Source: Caenorhabditis elegans (lineage: Eukaryota; Nematoda; Chromadorea; Rhabditida; Rhabditidae). Taken from it: a stretch of 64,000 bases of DNA. Made by a program: the position numbers and the translations under genes. Below the pieces are notes generated by a model that saw nothing but the letters and a program-made list of their open reading frames with translations, was not told the DNA's origin and did no database searches. Location of the stretch: the NCBI RefSeq assembly GCF_000002985.6, contig NC_003279.8, positions 8,742,001-8,806,000 of the forward strand. The letters run 5' to 3'. Shown here piece after piece: positions 15,862 through 51,097 of this stretch (positions within the stretch are counted from its first letter, which is position 1; every line of letters starts with the position of its first letter).

Positions 15862-16017
15862 GTTGTGCGGAGACCCGAAGAACTATAGTTTTAAAACCGT
15901 GCGGCAGTTGCAGAAATGGGCGTATTGCAAGTCACGGTTCTGTGGGCGGGGCCAATCCCCCGAGTTGGTAATCCCCCCAATTGGACATCCCCCGAGTTCT
16001 TCGGGTCTCGTTGTGCG
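15862..16017. mobile_element. Internally deleted hAT-like MITE with 8-bp TSD
   Basis: The element (15870-16009, 140 bp) begins GAGACCCGAAGAAC and ends with its inverse GTTCTTCGGGTCTC. It is flanked by an exact 8-bp direct repeat GTTGTGCG (15862-15869 and 16010-16017). Its body is nearly identical to the right arm of the larger palindromic copy at 47411-47695, so most of the left arm has been lost. An 8-bp duplication fits hAT-type transposition. Confidence 0.88.
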
Positions 16018-29433: not shown

Positions 29434-32400
29434 TTAAGATGAAGCTGTCTTTTTAGACTTATTCTTTTTCTTTTTCTCGTCTCCACAAACATATTCCACG
29501 AGTTGAGGGATTTGGCCATTCGTATGATAATTTTCAATGTGAGATTCACCTGGAATAGTTAAAATTTAGTTTAAAAATATATTAGTTTCATAGAATTCGA
29601 TATTTAGAAATAGAGGAAATCATTACCCAGTTGCTTTTGCCACTTTTGACATAAAAATACGGTGCGCGGTCTCGAAACCAAAATCTCGCAGCTACAGTAC
29701 ATACAAGTATTTTGCAATTTCCTACGATTCTTTCCTGATCGAAATTTGACGAACTTATTTCGTAATTTACCAAAAAGTTGTGTTTGTATTTTAAAATAGG
29801 AGAACCAAGCTAAATATGAGAAAAAAACGTGAAGAAATTTTGCAAAATATTCATGGGATACGGCAGCTATAACGTTTCCGTCGTGTCGAGACCGGGTACA
29901 ACATTTTTCGGTCAAAATCGCAAAAGAGCAATTGGGTCAAAACCTCTACATATGCTTTTCCAAAAATAATTTGTTATTTTTGGAAGAAAAACTGATTTTG
30001 AACTAGAGTTTCCAGATTGTTCCAAATAATTCCAAAATGGTGATCTAACCGTAAATCCCGTTGAAATGACCAATTGAACCCGAAAAGTAGTTAAAACATT
30101 TCAGATCGAAATTTCAGAATTTAGTTTTTATTATTTTCTTTAGCTCTCTCAATTGAAAATAACTTACTTCCAATGAAAGTTCCGCAGATAAAAAGATACG
30201 GAAGTCCCTTGTGAGCAGTTAATTGTTGAAGTTGACGTTGAATTGCAGCTGGTTTGTCTGTCTGAAAACTTTAATTTTGAAACCATACATTTCTATAAGA
30301 AATCAACCTTATCCACGTAGAATGTGACTAATGGTAATCCATATGTATCTCTCAATAATGTTTCAGTTTTCTTTGTGCTCTCGTTCTTAGAGTCAATGTA
30401 CAAAACTGCTGGCAATTTCCGAATCTGAAATATTTTCCCATTTGTTTCAAGTTGAAAATTCAAAGAATGACCTGCTGAGTTAAAGATTGACTTGGAGATG
30501 GAGTGACCACTGATGACGTGGCAGGTGCAGGACGACTGGTAACTGCCTTGTTTTGAGGTGTTGGACGAATTGTAGCACGAGTTGGTGGCTGGAATATTTA
30601 ATGTTTGATTAATATCTAAAGCTGAAATGAATATCGGAATTTTAACATAAATGGAGAACTTATATACTCAGCAGTAGCCCCCACTGGAGTGTACAGGGAA
30701 ACTTCTGGACATACTATCGCGTTGGTGTCGCGCTCAAACTTTGGAAACTCAATAAAATTGCCTTTTTCGGTGTGATAATACAATTTTTAAAATCAAAAAT
30801 TGATTTGGAATCATAGTAAAATATTTGATTGACTACAAAAAAATAATAAAATAACCTCGAATCATGCCTGAAAGTTGAAACTTTCGAAACACTCGCTAAA
30901 ACTTTTTTGGCAAATAACAAATTTCAGGAAGTTTTGAAAAAATCCTACAAACAATATATATTTTCCAACTCACCCGAGTAGTTGGTGATGGTCTCGGTTG
31001 AGACTTTGGTACAACCGATGAGCTTGGAGCAATTACTGAAGCTGGACGAGTTGGTGGTGGTGGACCACGTGTTACTGTAGCAACAGACATTGGTGGAACA
31101 GGTTGAACTGGTCGTGGTGGGACCACTTGTTGTTGAGATATAACTGATCCATGTGGTTCTTCTTCAATAACACTATCCTCATGATTACCATAAGATGTTG
31201 AATGAGTTGGAATTTGAACTTGTGATGGTCCTGGATATGTGTATACTTGTGGTTTTGACTGTCCAGAGTAGGTATTCACTTGACCAAGTGCAGCAGTTTG
31301 ATAGTTGTTTTTATATGTTGGAGGTTGAGTTACATATTGTTTTGGTGGTTGTTGTGGTTGCATTGGAGCAGGAGCCTGTGGAGCAGGAGCCTGTATAATT
31401 GGAGCCTGTGGAGCTGGGAGGAAGTTCATTGGTTGTTGAGGAGCTGGTTGTTGAGGTGGCGGTTGAGCAATTTGTTGTTGAACTGGGGCCTGTGGTTGAA
31501 CATATGGATTTGGTTGCATTCCTCCATATTGGTTCTGTTGTTGTTGCTGCTGTTGTTGCTGAAGTTGTTGTTGGCGAATCTGTTGTTGCAGTTGCTGGGC
31601 TTGTTGAGCTTGTTGAGCTTGTTGTTGAGCCAATCGAGCAGCTTCACGTTGCTGAGCCTGTTGAGCTGCGATTTGTTCGGCGAGTTGTTGCTGTTGGGCA
31701 ATCTAAAGTTATCATAATTGTCTTGAAATTGGAATTGAAGGTAAGTGGGTAATTTTTTAATCCTAAAATGACCAAATATCACGCTAAAATGTCAACTACC
31801 AGTCACATAGTTTACACCTATCGTAATTTCGAAAATTGAGTCAAAATCTTGTGTTCTACGAGTTTTAAATTTTAATCATTTTAAACATACGCATTCAAAC
31901 ATCATAGGGGTCTACAGCAAAACAGGATTTTTTGTTGAAAGCTTGACAATTTATCAGGACTAAACGTTTTGAAAAACGCAACAATTCTTGAAGTTTTCCA
32001 TTATGATATTCGGTATTAATGGGCTTAATTTATACAAAGTCCCCATTAGTACTCTGATCTCGGCAAATCGCCGCAACTTATCCACCAACTTTAGCAACTT
32101 TAGAAATGCCAAGCGCAGAAGTTGCTAAAATTTGGTAAAAACGTTGCTAAAGTTGGGCAAATTAGGTTAAAGTTGGGGATACCCTCAAAATTTGCACTGA
32201 AAATTTTTAAAAAATTGGCTAAACTTGGTTAAACAGTTGCTAAAGTTGGGAAAGAAGTTGCTAAAGACAGATTAAAAGTTGCGAGAATATACAATTGGTA
32301 GAAAAGTTGCTAATGTTGGCGGATAAGTTGCGGAAGGGTAAAGTTGGCGCTTAAGTTGCTAAAGTTGGTGAATAAGTTGCGACGAATTGCCGAGATATTT

Positions 32401-38264: not shown

Positions 38265-41200
38265 TTACAAATAAATCAACATATCGACAAATTGTCTGGG
38301 AGTGACTCTAACAGATGGTGCAGTTGTCTCTCGGACACATGGATGTCCAAGACTTTTCCAGAAAAGAGCTTTGCAATGGCAACAAATGTGAATGAGATCA
38401 GCGTAGAGTTCACGGCACCCGTGATATTTTTTGAGGTCGAAAAAGGCTTGACGCCACGATTTTCCTGAGGTTTTCTGTTGTTTGATTTGATATTCTTGGA
38501 AGTGAAATGTGCAAAGGGATTTCCAAATTTTGTCCTCGCCATTTATCATGTCTTGAAGAGCTTCATGAACTTGGGCAGTCTCCAAAAGGGAATTATGATC
38601 AGGGAGACGACGAAGAATTAGAAGAACAATCTGAAACAAAAACAAAATTAGGAAAATTCATAAAACTTTCATGGAAAGTTATGGCTCAAAACGACAACGT
38701 TTTCCCTGTCAGTATTTTACTTGCAGTAGTTAGCTCCGACAGTTTAAGAATTTATCGGAAAACGTTTAACTGGAAAAAAAACATTTTATAGATCTTTCTC
38801 TATAATTCCGTATTTAAAAACAACAGAGACAGATGTCGTAAAAGTAAATCAAAAGGGATGTAAGACAATCAATATTTGTACTTTTTAGAGAGATATTCTT
38901 TTATAGACCATAAAATTATGGAATGTTACATCGGTAAATCTGCCGGTGGTTGTTGATAAAGAACGGAGGGAATATTTATAATTTTGTAAAACGTACAGTT
39001 GAATATTATAATTTTTTGTGTTCAATTCCTTTGAATTTTTGGAATTTAGTTTTTTGTCAATCCTTATTATTGTAATATATTTAAAAAAATTTTCCTTTTT
39101 GAAATTAATTTCTTAAAACTCTCCTTGAGGAAAAAAACAAAAAATTGTGCATGCGCCGAGGACAGGATTTGAACCTGCATCGGGCTAGTGCCCTTTGAGT
39201 CTGAAAACTCATGCCTTGCCCCACTCGGCCACCTCGACGCACATTCTGAATATTTTTCATCTTCAATGTATAACGTTTATGGGACCATTAACAAGGATTG
39301 TGGGGAAATATTAGATGGTTAATCGATATAATGACTAAAATACTATATTTTAAGTTTAAAATAAATGAATTAAAAATGTTGAAAAGAAAACCAGAAGAAA
39401 AATTTAAAACTAAAATTCATATTGAGAGAAAAGGATAAAATTTTGAAAGTAATTTTTATGTCAACTCCGTTGAACTTTGTTCTTACATGATTCCATCCCA
39501 TCATTATGTTTTGTTTTCATCCCAGCCATTCGCCCCCTCCACTTTAGCTTGATAGACAAATTCCAATCCCCCGCTTTGAAAAAGCGGGAAAAAACCGACC
39601 CAATCACACAATTTCCTTTTCATTTTCTTTTCATTATTTTTACCATACTTTTGCTCTTGTATCTTTTATTTATCTTTATTTATCTTTATATGAAATGGTT
39701 TAATTACCCAAGTTTGAGGTTTCGAAAAACCCCCCAACGCGGTGACTGAGGAAAGGAAAAGAGTTTTGGAACTCTTTTCTGTACATTTTATTCATTTTAC
39801 ATTTTCCTAATCTATATTTTTTTCTAAAAATAAATTGTAGTATCTTATTGAAAAATCTAAACTTTTTCACAATTTTTTGTGTTTTTAAATTTAAATGTAG
39901 AACTTATTGGAATACTAATTTTTTAAGTGGTAAACATTTAATATTTAGGGAAAAGTTACGAACCTCTCTCGGAAGATCAAAGAATGTAAGAGCACTTTCA
40001 TCATCGGCATCAGCAGCCGTTCGAACATTATTTTCAGATATGAGATCAAGAAGTGATGAGGCAGTTTGATGATGACGAGACACTAATTGTGGAGATCCAC
40101 ACACGTTCACATTATCCAACCCGTTACCGAACTGAAATAAATTTAAACATTTTATTAATTTCTTCAAATCTTAAACAGCTCTTGTAGTATAATTAAAACT
40201 ACAATTTACCTGTTTGACTAGATCTTTGGCAGTTGACACGTTAACATCTTCGTTTGATGATCGGAAGCAAATGGCACTGAGAATACCCAAAAGAGATTTA
40301 CGAGCAGTTGCAGAGAGATTTGGAAGTTTCTCTTCTACTAATATTTGAACTACCTGAAAGTTTTGCATTTGATACGGGTCTAATGAATTGACATGTTATC
40401 TATGGTGATTTTTTCTATATATTTTTTGTTTCGAAATTTAGAGCACTCAGACAAACGCTTAGTCGTCTAATTAGATTTCAACCAAATATAATGGGGACAT
40501 AATTCATATTTGTTTAGAAATCTATATTTGATTATATTTGCTCCATATTTTATTAAAAAATCCATGTTAGATTAGATTTGTTCCATATTAGATTAGAAAT
40601 CCATATTTGATTAGAATTGTTCTATATTGAATTAAATTTCAACCATATTTGATTAGATTTGTTCCATATTGGATTAGATTTTAACCATATTTGATTAGAA
40701 AATCCATATTGGATTAGAATAGGAAGCCTATTAATTATATCCCCATTATATTTGGTTGAAATCTAATTAGACTACTAAGCGTTTGTCTGAGCAATGTCAC
40801 AAATTTAAGCCCATATTTATCATGTTAAACAAGAGATATTTGAAACGAAATTGAAATATAAAATTTGCAGAAATTTTTTTCCCAAAATTATGAGTCGTCA
40901 GTCACGGGAAATCACTATTTTTTAAACTGTAATTGAAAATCTTTCATTTTTTCACAAAGCTTTATCAGATCATTTTGGGAGGACTATTGCTTGGCAAATC
41001 GCCGCAACTTATTCACCAACTTTAGCAACTTTAGAAATGCCAAGCGCAGAAGTTGCTAAAATTTGGTAAGAACGTTGATAAAGTTGGGCAAATTAGATTA
41101 AAGTTGGGTTTACCCTCAAAATTTGCACTGAAAATTTTTTTTTAATTGGCTAAACTTGGTTAAAAAGTTGCTAATGTCGGGAAAGAAGTTGCTAAAGACA

Positions 41201-42946
41201 GATTAAAAGTTGCGAGAATATACAATTGGTAGAAAAGTTGCTAATGTTGGCGGATAAGTTGCGGAAGGGTAAAGTTGGCGCTTAAGTTGCTAAAGTTGGT
41301 GAATAAGTTGCGACGAATTGCCGAGTTGTATTAGCTGTTAACAATTTCCTCACTTAAACTACTTCAAATTTATTGCACCATACCTTGCAAATGAAGTTAA
41401 ATCTGCGAACGTCATTGACTGCACGAGCAAGATCAAGGCGATGAAATGCTTCAGACATACTCGTACATCCAATAAACTCTTTCGATGTACTTTTAACAAA
41501 ACAATGTGGAATCCAATCTTTGTCATTCGAATCTGTAATAATTTATATTTTATCTAATGTGTTCTGTTTGATAGTATAATTTAATTCAACTTTCAAAGCT
41601 AGATCCCCTTTTCATCCAGAATAAATCTTTTTTCCCTGGTGACGCACTAATCCTGAATTGTAGACCCACATACAATTCTAGGCCAATACATGTTCATTTC
41701 CGTTCCGCCAGGTAGGCAACATGAAGAGACTCAGACCGGAAAACAAATTGTTATTACTAAATAGCACCAGTATATTCAATCCGTTCACCTCTCTATGTGC
41801 AGGTGTCAGATTTTCTATGTATCTCTCATTTTGGCGCACTGTCTAACAGGAATAATCGGTGGGAGTTATTAATGAATGTTTCATGCCACCGTTTGTATAC
41901 CTGCGTCTCATGATCTCTAGTAGGCACTCAATTATAATTATCGCGGCGGTGTGGGAAGGCTTCGATAGGAATAGGATTAATGTGTGAAGAGTTCAGAAAA
42001 AAAAAAGCAGTACCACGCTATGAATTATATAAAAACTTCAAGATTAAAATTTTCCAACCAGGAACCAGAATTTCTCCCCAAGTTCATCTCTTTCGTGTGT
42101 TCGCTCAAAATGCTCATAGTGCCCTGAGCGTTCACGTCATGTGTCTAATCGGCGTCCAGAGTCGCCACTCAGTCATATGTTTTGTGTGCTCAACCAGAGA
42201 AATCAGCTGATATGTCTTGTTTTCATAGACGTTCTTCGACTTATCACAGTTGTACTTTAAAAAAATCACAAGTGACCAAGGTAAACGTTTACGAGTGTTT
42301 ACGAGTGATGTATTATATAGGAATTGGGTACACTTGTGTATGTAAAACTAATGATGATATCAATTTTAAAAGGTTTTTGAACTTTATTAAAAATTTATAG
42401 TCAGTGAAAAGGCTTACCAGAATCCTCTGCACTACTCGAAGACGAATTGCATCTTTCAATTCCAGATCCAGGCAAAGAACCACATGAACTATTTTGTTCA
42501 GAATCGTAGAGCCCAAATTTAGGAACTGAAGATGCAGATGAACCAGAATCAAGAATAAATTTTGGAGAAGAACTGCTCACAAGAGTTGGACTAGAAGACA
42601 CTTGAGGTATAAAAATTGGTTCTGACGATATCTGAAAATTCTTTATATTCTTTTGACATATACAATAGTGCACACGTCTCCCTATTCTTTGCCAAATGCT
42701 CATTTCTCTATGTCGCACATCGTTTTCACACAAGCCGTGCTTGCTTGCTTCACAAAATTTATGGCAGATGCGCGAGGAGCATGTATATGCGGTGTAATAT
42801 GAGCCAAAACTTTGTGACTCTTTTCAAAAAGCAACCTCTGACAACTACTATGGGAAAGAATAATGGGAACAAAGTACGAGAAGATGATAACTTTCCGATT
42901 GCTGGAAAAATTTTATTTTTGGCATATGGCTGAGTATATATGTATA

Positions 42947-47402: not shown

Positions 47403-47703
47403 TGCACGCGGAGACCCGAAGAACTCGGGGGATGTCCAATTGGGGGGATTACCAACTCGGGGGATTGGCTCCGCCCGCAGAACCGTGGCTTACAATACGC
47501 CCATTTCACAACTGCCGCACGGTTTTAAAATTATTTTCTCTTGTTGTTTCTCGCTCTAATGAGAAAAATACTGTTTTAAAGCCGTGCGGCAGTTGCAGAA
47601 ATGGGCGTATTGCAAGCCACGGTTCTGTGGGCGGGGCCAATCCCCCGAGTTGGTAATCCCCCCCAATTGGACATCCCCCGAGTTCTTCGGGTCTCTGCAC
47701 GCG
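47403..47703. mobile_element. Palindromic hAT-like MITE with 8-bp TSD
   Basis: The element (47411-47695, 285 bp) consists of two near-perfect inverted arms of about 125 bp. They begin GAGACCCGAAGAACTCGGGG and include ACTGCCGCACGG at their inner ends, separated by a 40-bp AT-rich spacer. The flanks carry an exact 8-bp direct repeat TGCACGCG (47403-47410 and 47696-47703). It is the full-length relative of the shortened copy at 15870-16009. The arms are unusually GC-rich for this region. Confidence 0.92.
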
Positions 47704-49117
47704 GTGAGGTGCACTTTTCAGATAAATTTGTTTTTAATTAAAAACGAATTTTTTAAAAACAAATTTTTCAAGCTTTATTTTGTTTTTTTTTCTGTCAAAT
47801 TTTGGTTTCTTTTTTTTATATTTCATTCCTTCTGAAAATATTTATTCAACTATTGCACTCAATATATTTTATATTTACACCAAATTTCATTACCAAAGTC
47901 TAAAAATAGTCTTGAAACTGAAAAAAAAAACAACTCCTGAGTGAAAATCGAACAACCATAAATTCGATTTACAAAACAAAATGAGGAGAAAACCGGCCGG
48001 AAAAATATAAGTGAAAGTTTCGAAGCGACAAAAAGACGAGAAAAAAAAATGAAATTGTGGTTGTAAAAATGAAATATATTCTTCTTTTCCGCCGGTTTCC
48101 TCTTCATCAAACGTTGACCGATATTTCCAATTTTCGAAATTTTTGCTCGATTTTCACAAATTTGTTGTTTTTCGACGATTGTAGAATCCTAAATCAGTCT
48201 GTAAATTTGATTTTTTGTTTAAAAAAAATTCCCCAAATCCTAAACCACAGATACGGAAACAAAACAAACGAGTGAAGAGTTTCGGACGGCGGGTCGAATA
48301 AATTAACAGCCTCTTTCTCTTTCTGAAGAGGTAGATTGCCACTCGAACGGAAAGAATAGGAAGAGGAAATAGAAATTCTGACAATTGAGTTGTTTCTGCT
48401 ACTGCTATTTCTTCCGTTCTTCTCATCAATAGAGACTCCAGTTTCATTGATTTCGTATCTTGTTTCCAAGCTTCTCGCTTGATTTAACGCATTAGTTGTT
48501 AAAAACGCCTTTTGCGTTAATCTAAAACTGAATAATGTCTCTGAATCTTTGAATTTATGTTTTAAATTATCATAATATCCCAAGTTTCCAGAATTCTGAA
48601 ATTTCTGCTCTGACTATTTCCAGTTTCTCTCTGTTTTAGTTTTCTCTCTCTAAAAACACTTTGCAAACATGTACTTTGACAAAAAACGACCTTTTTTGCT
48701 TCAGCCCGGAAACTAATTCTTGCTCTTATCCGCTTTTCTCTTCGTCGTAATTTTTCACTTTTAAACTCATTCCCGACGACAAGAAACGAGAATGTTTGAT
48801 GAAGAATGAATCATTCAGTTCGCACTTGTAATTTTCTCTGATCCCTCCGTGCTTCTCTGAGAAAAATGACCATTCGTCTGCTTCTCTACCGTATTCTTTT
48901 TGTGAGCAGTAGAGAGAGACTGGTTAGCAGTATCAATTTGGTCAGCGGATAGAGGGGAAAAAGTGAATAGGAAGAGAAGAAAACTGGGAAAACAAACAGT
49001 AAAAAAGAGATTGATTCGATTGTAGGACTCTTCCATTTTCTCATCTTTGCTCTGCTTCATGTTTGTAAGAATTTAGTTTTTCAAGATTAAATCATTTAGA
49101 TTGCTAAGAAAAAACTA

Positions 49118-49809
49118 ACTAGGGAGTTATTCAACCATACGGTGCGATCGGGTAAAAGTAAACGTGTTATGCGATAGCTGGCATCTTAGGCTTTCAGAAT
49201 CTGTTATTTGTTTCGGCGGAAGACCTCTGTGAGTCTGGAAATTTTCATCTGAAAATGTAGTACTGAAATCAGTGCATTTCCTATGGTTAACAGTGGATTT
49301 TGTCTCTGGCGCCAACAGAAGTCTCACCACAATGGTGGAAGGGCGAAATCATCGCTTCGGTGGTCGAGTGGTGAACGCGTTCGCCTCTTGAGCAGAAGTT
49401 TGTGGGTTCGGTTCCCACACATGGTTTAAATTTTGGCCTTTTTTTATACAAAATTTTTAGAACGGGAAACAAATGTTTAAAACAGTTTTTTGAGGTTTTT
49501 ACATTACTTTTTTGCTTTTTGATTGAACCACAATTACCCTGGAAACTTTTCAGAAATTTTTATTTTTTCGAAAATTGCCACTTTTTTCTCCACGTTGCTG
49601 AGATATAGACCTTTAACTATTTAGAATATTCAATTTTCGAAAAAATAAAAATTTCTGAAAAGTTTCCAGGGTAATTGTGGTTCAATCAAAAAGCAAAAAA
49701 GTAATGTAAAAACCTCAAAAAACTGTTTTAAACATTTGTTTTTTTAAACATTTTGCATAACACGTTTACTTTTACCCGATCGCACCGTATGGTTGAATAA
49801 CTCCCTAGT
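49118..49809. mobile_element. Foldback DNA element with perfect TIRs and inner palindrome
   Basis: Outer termini are perfect 55-bp inverted repeats (49118-49172 and 49755-49809) starting ACTAGGGAGTTATTCAACC. Inside, a second perfect inverted repeat of 110 bp (49468-49577 and 49631-49740, starting AACAAATGTTTAAAACAG) encloses a 53-base spacer. A left-hand unique part (49173-49467) contains a tRNA-like sequence. No transposase frame is present, so it is non-autonomous. Perfect arm identity suggests recent insertion or gene conversion. TA could be the duplicated target (CTAGGG...CCCTAG), but this is not certain. Confidence 0.9.
49354..49425 (+). pseudogene. tRNA-like sequence inside foldback element
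   Basis: An A-box TGGTCGAGTGG and a B-box-like GGTTCGGTTCC lie at normal spacing. The T arm GTGGG-TTCGGTT-CCCAC is perfect. An anticodon-like arm has loop CTCTTGA (anticodon CTT, lysine) with one stem mismatch. The acceptor strands pair poorly, so a mature tRNA is unlikely. A run of seven or more T follows at about 49439, a possible polymerase III terminator. Confidence 0.6.
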
Positions 49810-51097
49810 AAGAACATTTTAAATTCTGGCTGCACAACATGGTCAAAATATTTTGAAATTTTGAATTTAATGCCGCCGGTAAAGCTTACGATTTATTTGT
49901 TCTTTGCAAAAATCGCTTAAAATATTTTGAAAAAAAAGTTCCGTTCATTTTTCACACATCTCCCCCGGTTTCGGATGACCTTGTGTCTCATTTGACAAAG
50001 AAAGACCTCGATTTGGAGAGAAAAATGAGGCAAAATAATGACACCTGTCACACTAAAAACTGACGTTGCCACTAAGTTTTTGGCGCTTCCTGAAGAAGTT
50101 GTCTGCCAATCCGTCGTAACTTTCGAGGAAGAAATTATCTTCAACCAAATACAAAACATGTGTTTTTTTTTTTGAAAACCTAAAAAACTATATTCAAAAA
50201 CGTCACAGAATCAATGTTTGTTTCGTAATTTCGTTTCCCAATACCGTATCCCTTGGTCAATATTCTGAGCTCATTCAAAACATATTTTTTCTTTTATTTT
50301 CCGCGAAAAAAACTAAAGTTCTCAAATAAAAGAAACAATGGCGCGCCTCCTGAATCTCCCATGAGGAAAGGACCTCCCGGGAATCATTCATTCATTTTCT
50401 CTCGATTCTCTTCATTTTACCTACTCTTTCATTGTCCATTCGTCCATCTGTCTCTGTCTATTTCTCTATCAATCTCGTCTTCCCGTACACTGTCTCGCAG
50501 CCTTTTCCTTCTAGTGTCGGCCATTATGGTGGTCACACAAGCGGCGACGGCCCCGCTCTGGTTAGCGAGAAGACGTCTCCCGCTTAACCTGTACCTCCTA
50601 AAGGCATTTTATTGATTTTTTATTTCAAACTTGGAACCCGTGGTTTTAAAGATTACTATCGAGAAAACCGGTTTCAGAAGGACCAAAAGTTACGAAATTA
50701 GTGACTTAACCAATCCACTTTTCATATTTATTAACCTGAATTCTGAAGTGCGAATTATCAAATAGTACTGAATTATTTATAGATTTATTATCATAAAAAA
50801 TGTGTTCTCATGGAAAATTTCAAAAAATTTATGGCAAGAACAGTCTAGAATAATTTTTTTTTTTAAGATTAAAAAATTTATCATTTAGTACAATATACAA
50901 TTTTCTCTTTTATAATATTATGATAATATACATAAGAATCTTTGTAAAATAATAAATCTTCCAGAAAACGACGGGAAAATACGGGAACCGATCCGACATC
51001 TGCATTTATAGGATATTTTTACAGGGTTATTATTTAGGTAAAAGCTTTCAATTTTTGAAACCTTTAACAATTTTTAAAAATTCAGATTAGGCGGATA

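Follow-up and report, generated by a model that had tools for sequence, protein, structure and literature searches.

A foldback element of the Tc4 type

The 64-kb window (the whole stretch of DNA analysed) carries a foldback DNA element with a tRNA-like block of the Pol III promoter type, as a preliminary description of the sequence had proposed. The window corresponds to G000:C1:8742001-8806000, on what we take to be C. elegans chromosome I. The element is 690 bp long and occupies positions 49119-49808 of the window, with a TAA on each side; the boundaries first given, 49118-49809, had to be corrected. The insertion target was CTAAG, seen as C-TAA 5' of the element and TAA-G 3' of it. The features of the locus are:

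49116-49118, no strand: left target-site duplication TAA (target CTAAG); flank AAAAAACTAA then CTAGGGAG
49119-49808, no strand: Tc4-type foldback element, 690 bp, with internal deletions (alignment to L032)
49119-49172, + strand: left 54-bp terminal inverted repeat, beginning CTAGGGAGTTATTC
49119-49593, + strand: portion of the left arm that was kept, arm positions 1-475 (alignment to L032)
49354-49426, + strand: tRNA-like block, pointing inward; RF00005 20.6 bits, under the gathering score of 29
49361-49372, + strand: A box, with its start 243 bp in from the left end; 2 mismatches to the presumed consensus
49405-49415, + strand: B box, GGTTCGGTTCC; 1 mismatch to the presumed consensus
49431-49445, + strand: T4 (49431-49434) and T7 (49439-49445), Pol III terminator-like, preceding the inner palindrome
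49467-49577, + strand: left arm of the inner inverted repeat, left over from the long Tc4 arm
49594-49633, no strand: what is left of the Tc4 centre, positions 768-807 of the L032 element
49631-49741, - strand: right inner inverted-repeat arm
49742-49753, + strand: 12-bp insert at the junction of the right-arm deletion, duplicating 49726-49737
49755-49808, - strand: right 54-bp terminal inverted repeat
49809-49811, no strand: right target-site duplication TAA; right flank TAAGAACATT

The two terminal inverted repeats are 100% identical over 54 bp. The termini had been described as perfect over 55 bp, and perfect they are, but the 55th base belongs to the TAA duplication; with flanks included, the match covers 58 nt at 98%. 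The inner arms are likewise perfect, 111 nt with 100% complementarity, but a 53-nt spacer separates them, so that the 110-bp palindrome of the preliminary description is not a continuous one. Matches of this palindrome to microRNA families (RF04127, RF04174 and others) were all below gathering and were discarded, as they reflect a long AT-rich hairpin.

Deletion history of the window copy

Two full copies of the family, L031 and L032, are 1614 bp each. Aligned to L032, the window element matches positions 1-475 at 98.7%, and then the centre (768-807), a part of the right arm (1156-1287) and the right end (1561-1614). It is a Tc4-type DNA transposon that has lost internal sequence, and it derives by deletion from a foldback transposon of about 1.6 kb. 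Because it aligns piecewise to the full-length copy, the inner and outer repeats, which had been taken for separate nested repeats, are two remnants of one long arm pair left after internal deletions. Most of the inner arms and the block of the right arm are missing from the window copy.

The 12-bp insert at the right-arm junction repeats sequence that begins 16 bp upstream. In C. elegans, repair by polymerase theta is known to leave templated inserts of this type. The 30-mer spanning this junction occurs once in the genome, and among the loci compared the other two deletion junctions were carried only by L001 and L011, which are the window element itself. CAA is common to both sides of the centre-to-right-arm junction, and the left junction has no clear shared bases. 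Perfect arms had been read as a sign of recent mobility or conversion; this is possible but unspecific, the arms of longer copies being 90.6-100% alike on self-comparison. Taken alone, the window copy is an ordinary deletion derivative, with no special capture.

The Tc4-type family and its terminal subtypes

L032 is self-complementary at 97% identity, with long near-perfect inverted arms around a short centre, i.e. a foldback. Related copies have CTAGGG ends, and other Tc4-type copies are flanked by a duplication of TAA, TTA, TGA or TCA (TNA). Tc4 has been described with a CTNAG target and a TNA duplication (PMC11071193). The family thus shows the CTNAG target with TNA duplication, the foldback arms and, in longer relatives, the HTH, DDE_1 and Tc5_C parts of a Tc5-type transposase. 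The transposase of L030, a copy of the same terminal subtype as the window copy and identical to it in the first 32 bp, matches PF04236 at 77.7 bits (cut-off 27.4), PF03221 at 22.5 bits (cut-off 22.2) and PF03184 at 20.6 bits, under the cut-off of 22. L030 (G000:C5:6417539-6422232) is 4.3 kb long, of the Tc4 type, and has perfect arms of 1033 bp as well as transposase stretches.

Three terminal subtypes were found, with ends CTAGGGAGT (the window copy), CTAGGGAATGACC and CTAGGGAATGGCC; their outer 100-120 bp differ and the inner arm is largely common. When L043, L050 and the window copy were compared, identity in 25-bp windows was 84-100% along the inner arm, beginning at about position 151, and the outer 100-120 bp differed. 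It looks as if subtype ends had been exchanged between arms. Five CTAGGGAATGACC-end copies with a transposase match are 3.48-3.52 kb long; we take the length of Tc4v to be 3483 bp. The window copy is like Tc4/Tc4v in foldback structure, CTNAG target, TNA duplication, CTAGGG ends and the Tc5-type transposase of long copies, but differs from them in its outer 100-120 bp (CTAGGGAGTT). Tc4v mRNA is reported to be up in mut-16 worms (PMC6829131), and the family is therefore under RNA-based silencing.

The block has Pol III promoter boxes but no tRNA structure

The A and B boxes of a Pol III promoter named in the preliminary description are present (two mismatches and one, respectively, to the motifs that we take to be the consensus), and T-runs follow them. 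The block has the sequence features of a type-2 Pol III promoter, i.e. an A box, a B box at tRNA-like spacing (A-to-B distance 44) and a downstream T-run, here called an A/B/T unit. Such a unit was present on either strand in 8 of 10,000 dinucleotide shuffles of the 690 bp. A scan allowing up to 2+2 mismatches found none in 63 kb of the window, excluding the element and the tRNA-like gene at 39154, and none in one 501-bp Tc3 arm (one copy). As a positive control, the unit was recovered at all of 30 tRNA loci; a further unit lay in the flanks of 13 of these 30, which hence give no clean background.

The near-complete tRNA fold that had been proposed for the block did not hold up. Its RF00005 score of 20.6 bits stays under the gathering threshold of 29, and ARAGORN did not call the block as a tRNA. 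Cloverleaf pairing was at shuffle level, 68.8% of cells being paired in an alignment of 16 sequences, against a shuffle mean of 68.7% (the 16 were drawn from 49 block sequences, 29 of them distinct; 5 short pieces of 54 block matches were left out). Folded freely, the block forms two hairpins. A tRNA structure for the block was rejected on these three grounds, namely score, pairing and free fold. The two-hairpin fold is paired in 94.5% of cells across Tc4 copies, and was dropped as a common feature since single-sequence folds of Tc5, L114 and L113 lack it. Among seven loci compared with RF00005 (E up to 5 or 10), L041 scored 25.3, L030 25.0 and L040 23.5 bits, and the other four were not among the matches listed; in two further sets, none of five and none of four loci were listed at these E values.

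The block is a regular part of Tc4-type arms

It had been suggested that the terminus and the tRNA-like block be sought separately in the genome. In the 100.29 Mb searched (seven contigs), exact copies of the window element's first 32 bp lie at five sites, two of which are its own two ends, and the core 28-mer of the block (up to 3 mismatches) occurs at at least 48 sites. By-eye comparison places all 48 of these inside Tc4-type arm matches, which makes the block a trait of the family. Tc4-type arms carry it regularly, and the right arm of the window copy has lost it. The idea that this element had captured it does not stand: the block lies in the arms of other Tc4-type copies and in older relics, and as a diverged unit it is found in Tc5 and two further families.

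An A/B/T unit (up to 2+2 mismatches) was found at the block in 26 of 36 Tc4-type loci (L029-L064). Most of the ten loci without it (L040, L042, L046, L047, L048, L059, L060, L061, L062 and L064) are short or partial copies, and L040, L042 and L059 have a changed block. The short derivatives L046 and L047 have intact duplications and no complete block. The preliminary description had held that family copies lacking the block, together with no Pol III occupancy or small RNAs, would point to a chance insertion; such copies exist, but they are only short or fragmentary ones of this kind. L030 has the block in both arms, and the five transposase-bearing CTAGGGAATGACC-end copies of about 3.5 kb have the 28-mer in one arm only. 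Extra A/B/T units outside the arm block, in L049 and in the transposase-bearing L053, L054, L055 and L057, are taken as chance occurrences.

With the older relative L063 as query, five further sites were found in the genome, of which L096, L097 and L099 keep recognisable block sequence and L098 and L100 keep the B-box side. The relic L099 (G000:C6:1971369-1974455) has Tc4 similarity over little beyond the tRNA-like block and T-run, and its B box is exactly GGTTCGATTCC.

Inward units in Tc5 and further related families

Sixteen PF04236 (Tc5_C) matches were found in the genome. Two of them, at C6:125706 and C6:128348, point towards each other, and the ends around them (L113, L109) share a TGA flank; the two therefore look like one element, which makes about 15 elements. 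L109 and L113 (G000:C6, about 125028-129203) are apparently one foldback element with transposase sequence in both arms. All 16 matches have at least one inward A/B/T unit nearby.

One of these families we take to be Tc5, from the end sequence and size of the element. Its right arm (L107) has an inward unit with the A box at 242, the B box at 285 and a T10 run; the Tc4 counterparts are at 243 and 287, with T7. A 28-to-31-mer of Tc5 occurs ten times, as five inward pairs around five Tc5 transposase matches, and the left arm of one Tc5 copy (L115) was also read and has the unit. The A and B boxes and T-run thus face inward in both arms of five of five Tc5 copies, with the A box at 242, although Tc5 has CAAGGG ends and its arm is otherwise weakly alignable with that of Tc4.

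L108, L109 and L113 are one family, with CTAGGGAAT ends and the A box at 221-222. The family of L112 and L114 has CAAGGG ends and the A box at 242 (distances worked out from coordinates). Around C1:2147167 both inward units of the element were read (L110, L112); its left end was not found, and the arm match between L110 and L112 spans just 75 bp inward from the A box. At C4:10550936 the one unit that was read is upstream, 2.2 kb away (L114), and this unit and the transposase match presumably belong to the same element. An inward unit of A box, B box and T-run exists in each Tc4/Tc5-type family sampled, and its A box lies 208-243 bp from the end in each of them whose end was found.

Conservation of the A and B boxes

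At 1+1 mismatches the unit of the Tc5 arm appeared in none of 5000 shuffles, and a unit as weak as that of L108 in 39 of 5000. Alignment of the Tc4 and Tc5 blocks scored 61 (maximum 45 in 2000 shuffles), and local alignment of the whole arms scored 115 (maximum 68 in 500 shuffles). The whole arms score above shuffles and are therefore related by descent, so that equal positions of the boxes are not independent evidence.

Conservation was ranked over five divergent arms taken from an alignment of seven. No 12-mer among 389 is better conserved than the A box, whose mean pairwise identity is 0.79. The B box comes fourth among 390 11-mers; its value of 0.73 is a lower bound, since the alignment puts the Tc5 B box one column off. 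Comparison values for the same arms are 0.63 for the terminal 15 bp, 0.41 between the boxes (261-280) and 0.38 for the rest. Four of the five arms have an A-to-B distance of 43-44 and the remaining one has 48, and each of the seven aligned arms has a T-run after its B box. In the B boxes of Tc4 and Tc5 a G stands in place of the A of the presumed consensus, and the B box of the L113 family departs from this consensus at 2 of 11 positions. Of the tRNA pairing, the five arms keep 2-5 of 5 T-stem pairs and 3-5 of 7 acceptor pairs. The A and B boxes are held while the remaining arm and the tRNA pairing diverge, and boxes kept with structure lost are as expected for a promoter or TFIIIC site rather than for a tRNA.

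Closely related Tc4 copies conserve the block no better than the remaining arm, 53% of circular shifts being as low or lower (44 arm pieces of at least about 340 bases, one per element, 27 elements). Taken alone, this unexceptional conservation in young copies would favour a fossil.

A putative Pol III promoter module in transposon arms

From the pattern of conserved boxes we infer that Tc4/Tc5 arms have retained a Pol III/TFIIIC promoter module. We lean modestly towards a reading in which a tRNA gene was acquired before Tc4 and Tc5 separated, and the module descends from this gene and was kept as a type-2 Pol III promoter. TFIIIC would bind to the two boxes close to the ends of the element and would probably recruit TFIIIB and Pol III, and short inward RNAs of about 80-100 nt would result, ending at the T-run ahead of the palindrome. 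As such an RNA would end at the T-run, the palindrome would be left untranscribed from the block. Long inverted arms may otherwise invite dsRNA-triggered silencing, and the benefit of the module, at a guess, might be an accessible or insulated patch inside the element ends. The window copy retains one A box/B box/T-run unit. The fuller version, that arms throughout this cut-and-paste clade carry a conserved inward type-2 promoter, probably tRNA-derived, which recruits TFIIIC/Pol III and through a short RNA or a chromatin boundary eases the burden of foldback arms, is predicted from sequence, and we give it an even chance.

Several other explanations have to be weighed against this promoter module. 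The block could be a fossil, left by a tRNA in the Tc4/Tc5 ancestor and without any role today, that recurs by shared descent of the arms; we regard this as rather unlikely. The weak similarity of Tc4 and Tc5 arms over much of their length (115 against 68), the lost cloverleaf pairing and the block's unremarkable conservation within young Tc4 copies all agree with a fossil, but a fossil does not readily account for A and B boxes that are the best and fourth-best conserved arm windows when the sequence between and around them is not conserved, for a spacing of 43-44 in four of five arms, or for a unit near every one of the 16 transposase matches. The boxes may instead be a subterminal site for the transposase or another host protein, their likeness to Pol III promoters being incidental. 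Such a site would fit the position of the A box, which lies within the arm, 208-243 bp from the end, in every family whose end was found. Nevertheless, the two motifs correspond to the A and B boxes of tRNAs, are spaced as in a tRNA and have a T-run behind them, the window copy, L030, L040 and L041 score 20-25 bits with RF00005, and some deletion derivatives with intact duplications are without the block, which together make this explanation improbable.

The preliminary description had also raised the palindrome as a source of dsRNA if it were transcribed from a nearby promoter. Feeding of dsRNA from the Pol III block is unlikely because the T4 and T7 runs separate the B box from the palindrome. 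Read-through from the block across the inner palindrome, giving a hairpin RNA and then small-RNA silencing, would have a short way to go, as the palindrome begins 21 bp past the T7 run and its arms are perfectly complementary, and the route exists in C. elegans, where A and B boxes outside tRNA genes drive Pol III and the transcripts of the mir-1829 family are Dicer-cut, by the account in PMC12157501. We consider it very improbable all the same, given the two T-runs between block and palindrome, the T-run after the B box in seven of seven aligned arms and, in the full-length L032, a complementary half some 700 bp beyond. That the window element alone acquired a tRNA fragment, by chance insertion or by capture, deserves practically no credence: the block sits at 48 sites in Tc4-type arms and related units occur in three other families, and the family copies carrying the block refute it.

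The putative module has known counterparts. tRNA-derived SINEs have an internal type-2 Pol III promoter in a repeat and spread by retrotransposition, whereas here the module is embedded in the arms of an element that has a DDE-type transposase and is flanked by TNA duplications. Worm TFIIIC occupies many A/B-box sites without Pol III, and many of these are CeRep3 repeats; 44.6% of the extra-TFIIIC sites overlap repeats, 214 of 225 of those being CeRep3 (PMC6950938). Like the block described here, these extra-TFIIIC sites and the CeRep3 putative tRNA pseudogenes combine an A box and a B box without a working tRNA, but they were not tied to a DNA transposon arm, "Tc4" and "transpos" occurring 0 times in the main text of that report (PMC6950938). 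A literature search returned no account of a Pol III-like module in Tc4/Tc5; it did not cover the founding Tc4 papers, and an earlier mention is possible. If the boxes work, a DNA transposon clade retains in its arms a Pol III promoter, a part normally linked to tRNAs and SINEs; this would suggest a reason for the persistence of long inverted arms, and TFIIIC sites would be mobile around the worm genome.

Other features in the window

A tRNA-like gene with a long variable arm lies at 39154-39238 on the - strand (RF00005 46.1 bits). Its anticodon could not be assigned by ARAGORN, and it is possibly a Ser/Leu-type tRNA gene or pseudogene. Similar foldback repeats at 32057-32396 and 40990-41325, with arms of 47 and 45 nt, 246 nt apart in both, and a common 49-bp tandem consensus, appear to be two copies of a single small element. 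The region 47408-47698 holds nested inverted repeats (66 nt at 95% and 40 nt at 98%), and its AATCCCCCGAGTTGGA unit recurs as a tandem repeat at 15954-15998. At 40446-40791 a 63-nt inverted repeat (95%) surrounds a tandem array of CCATATTAGATTAGA-like units.
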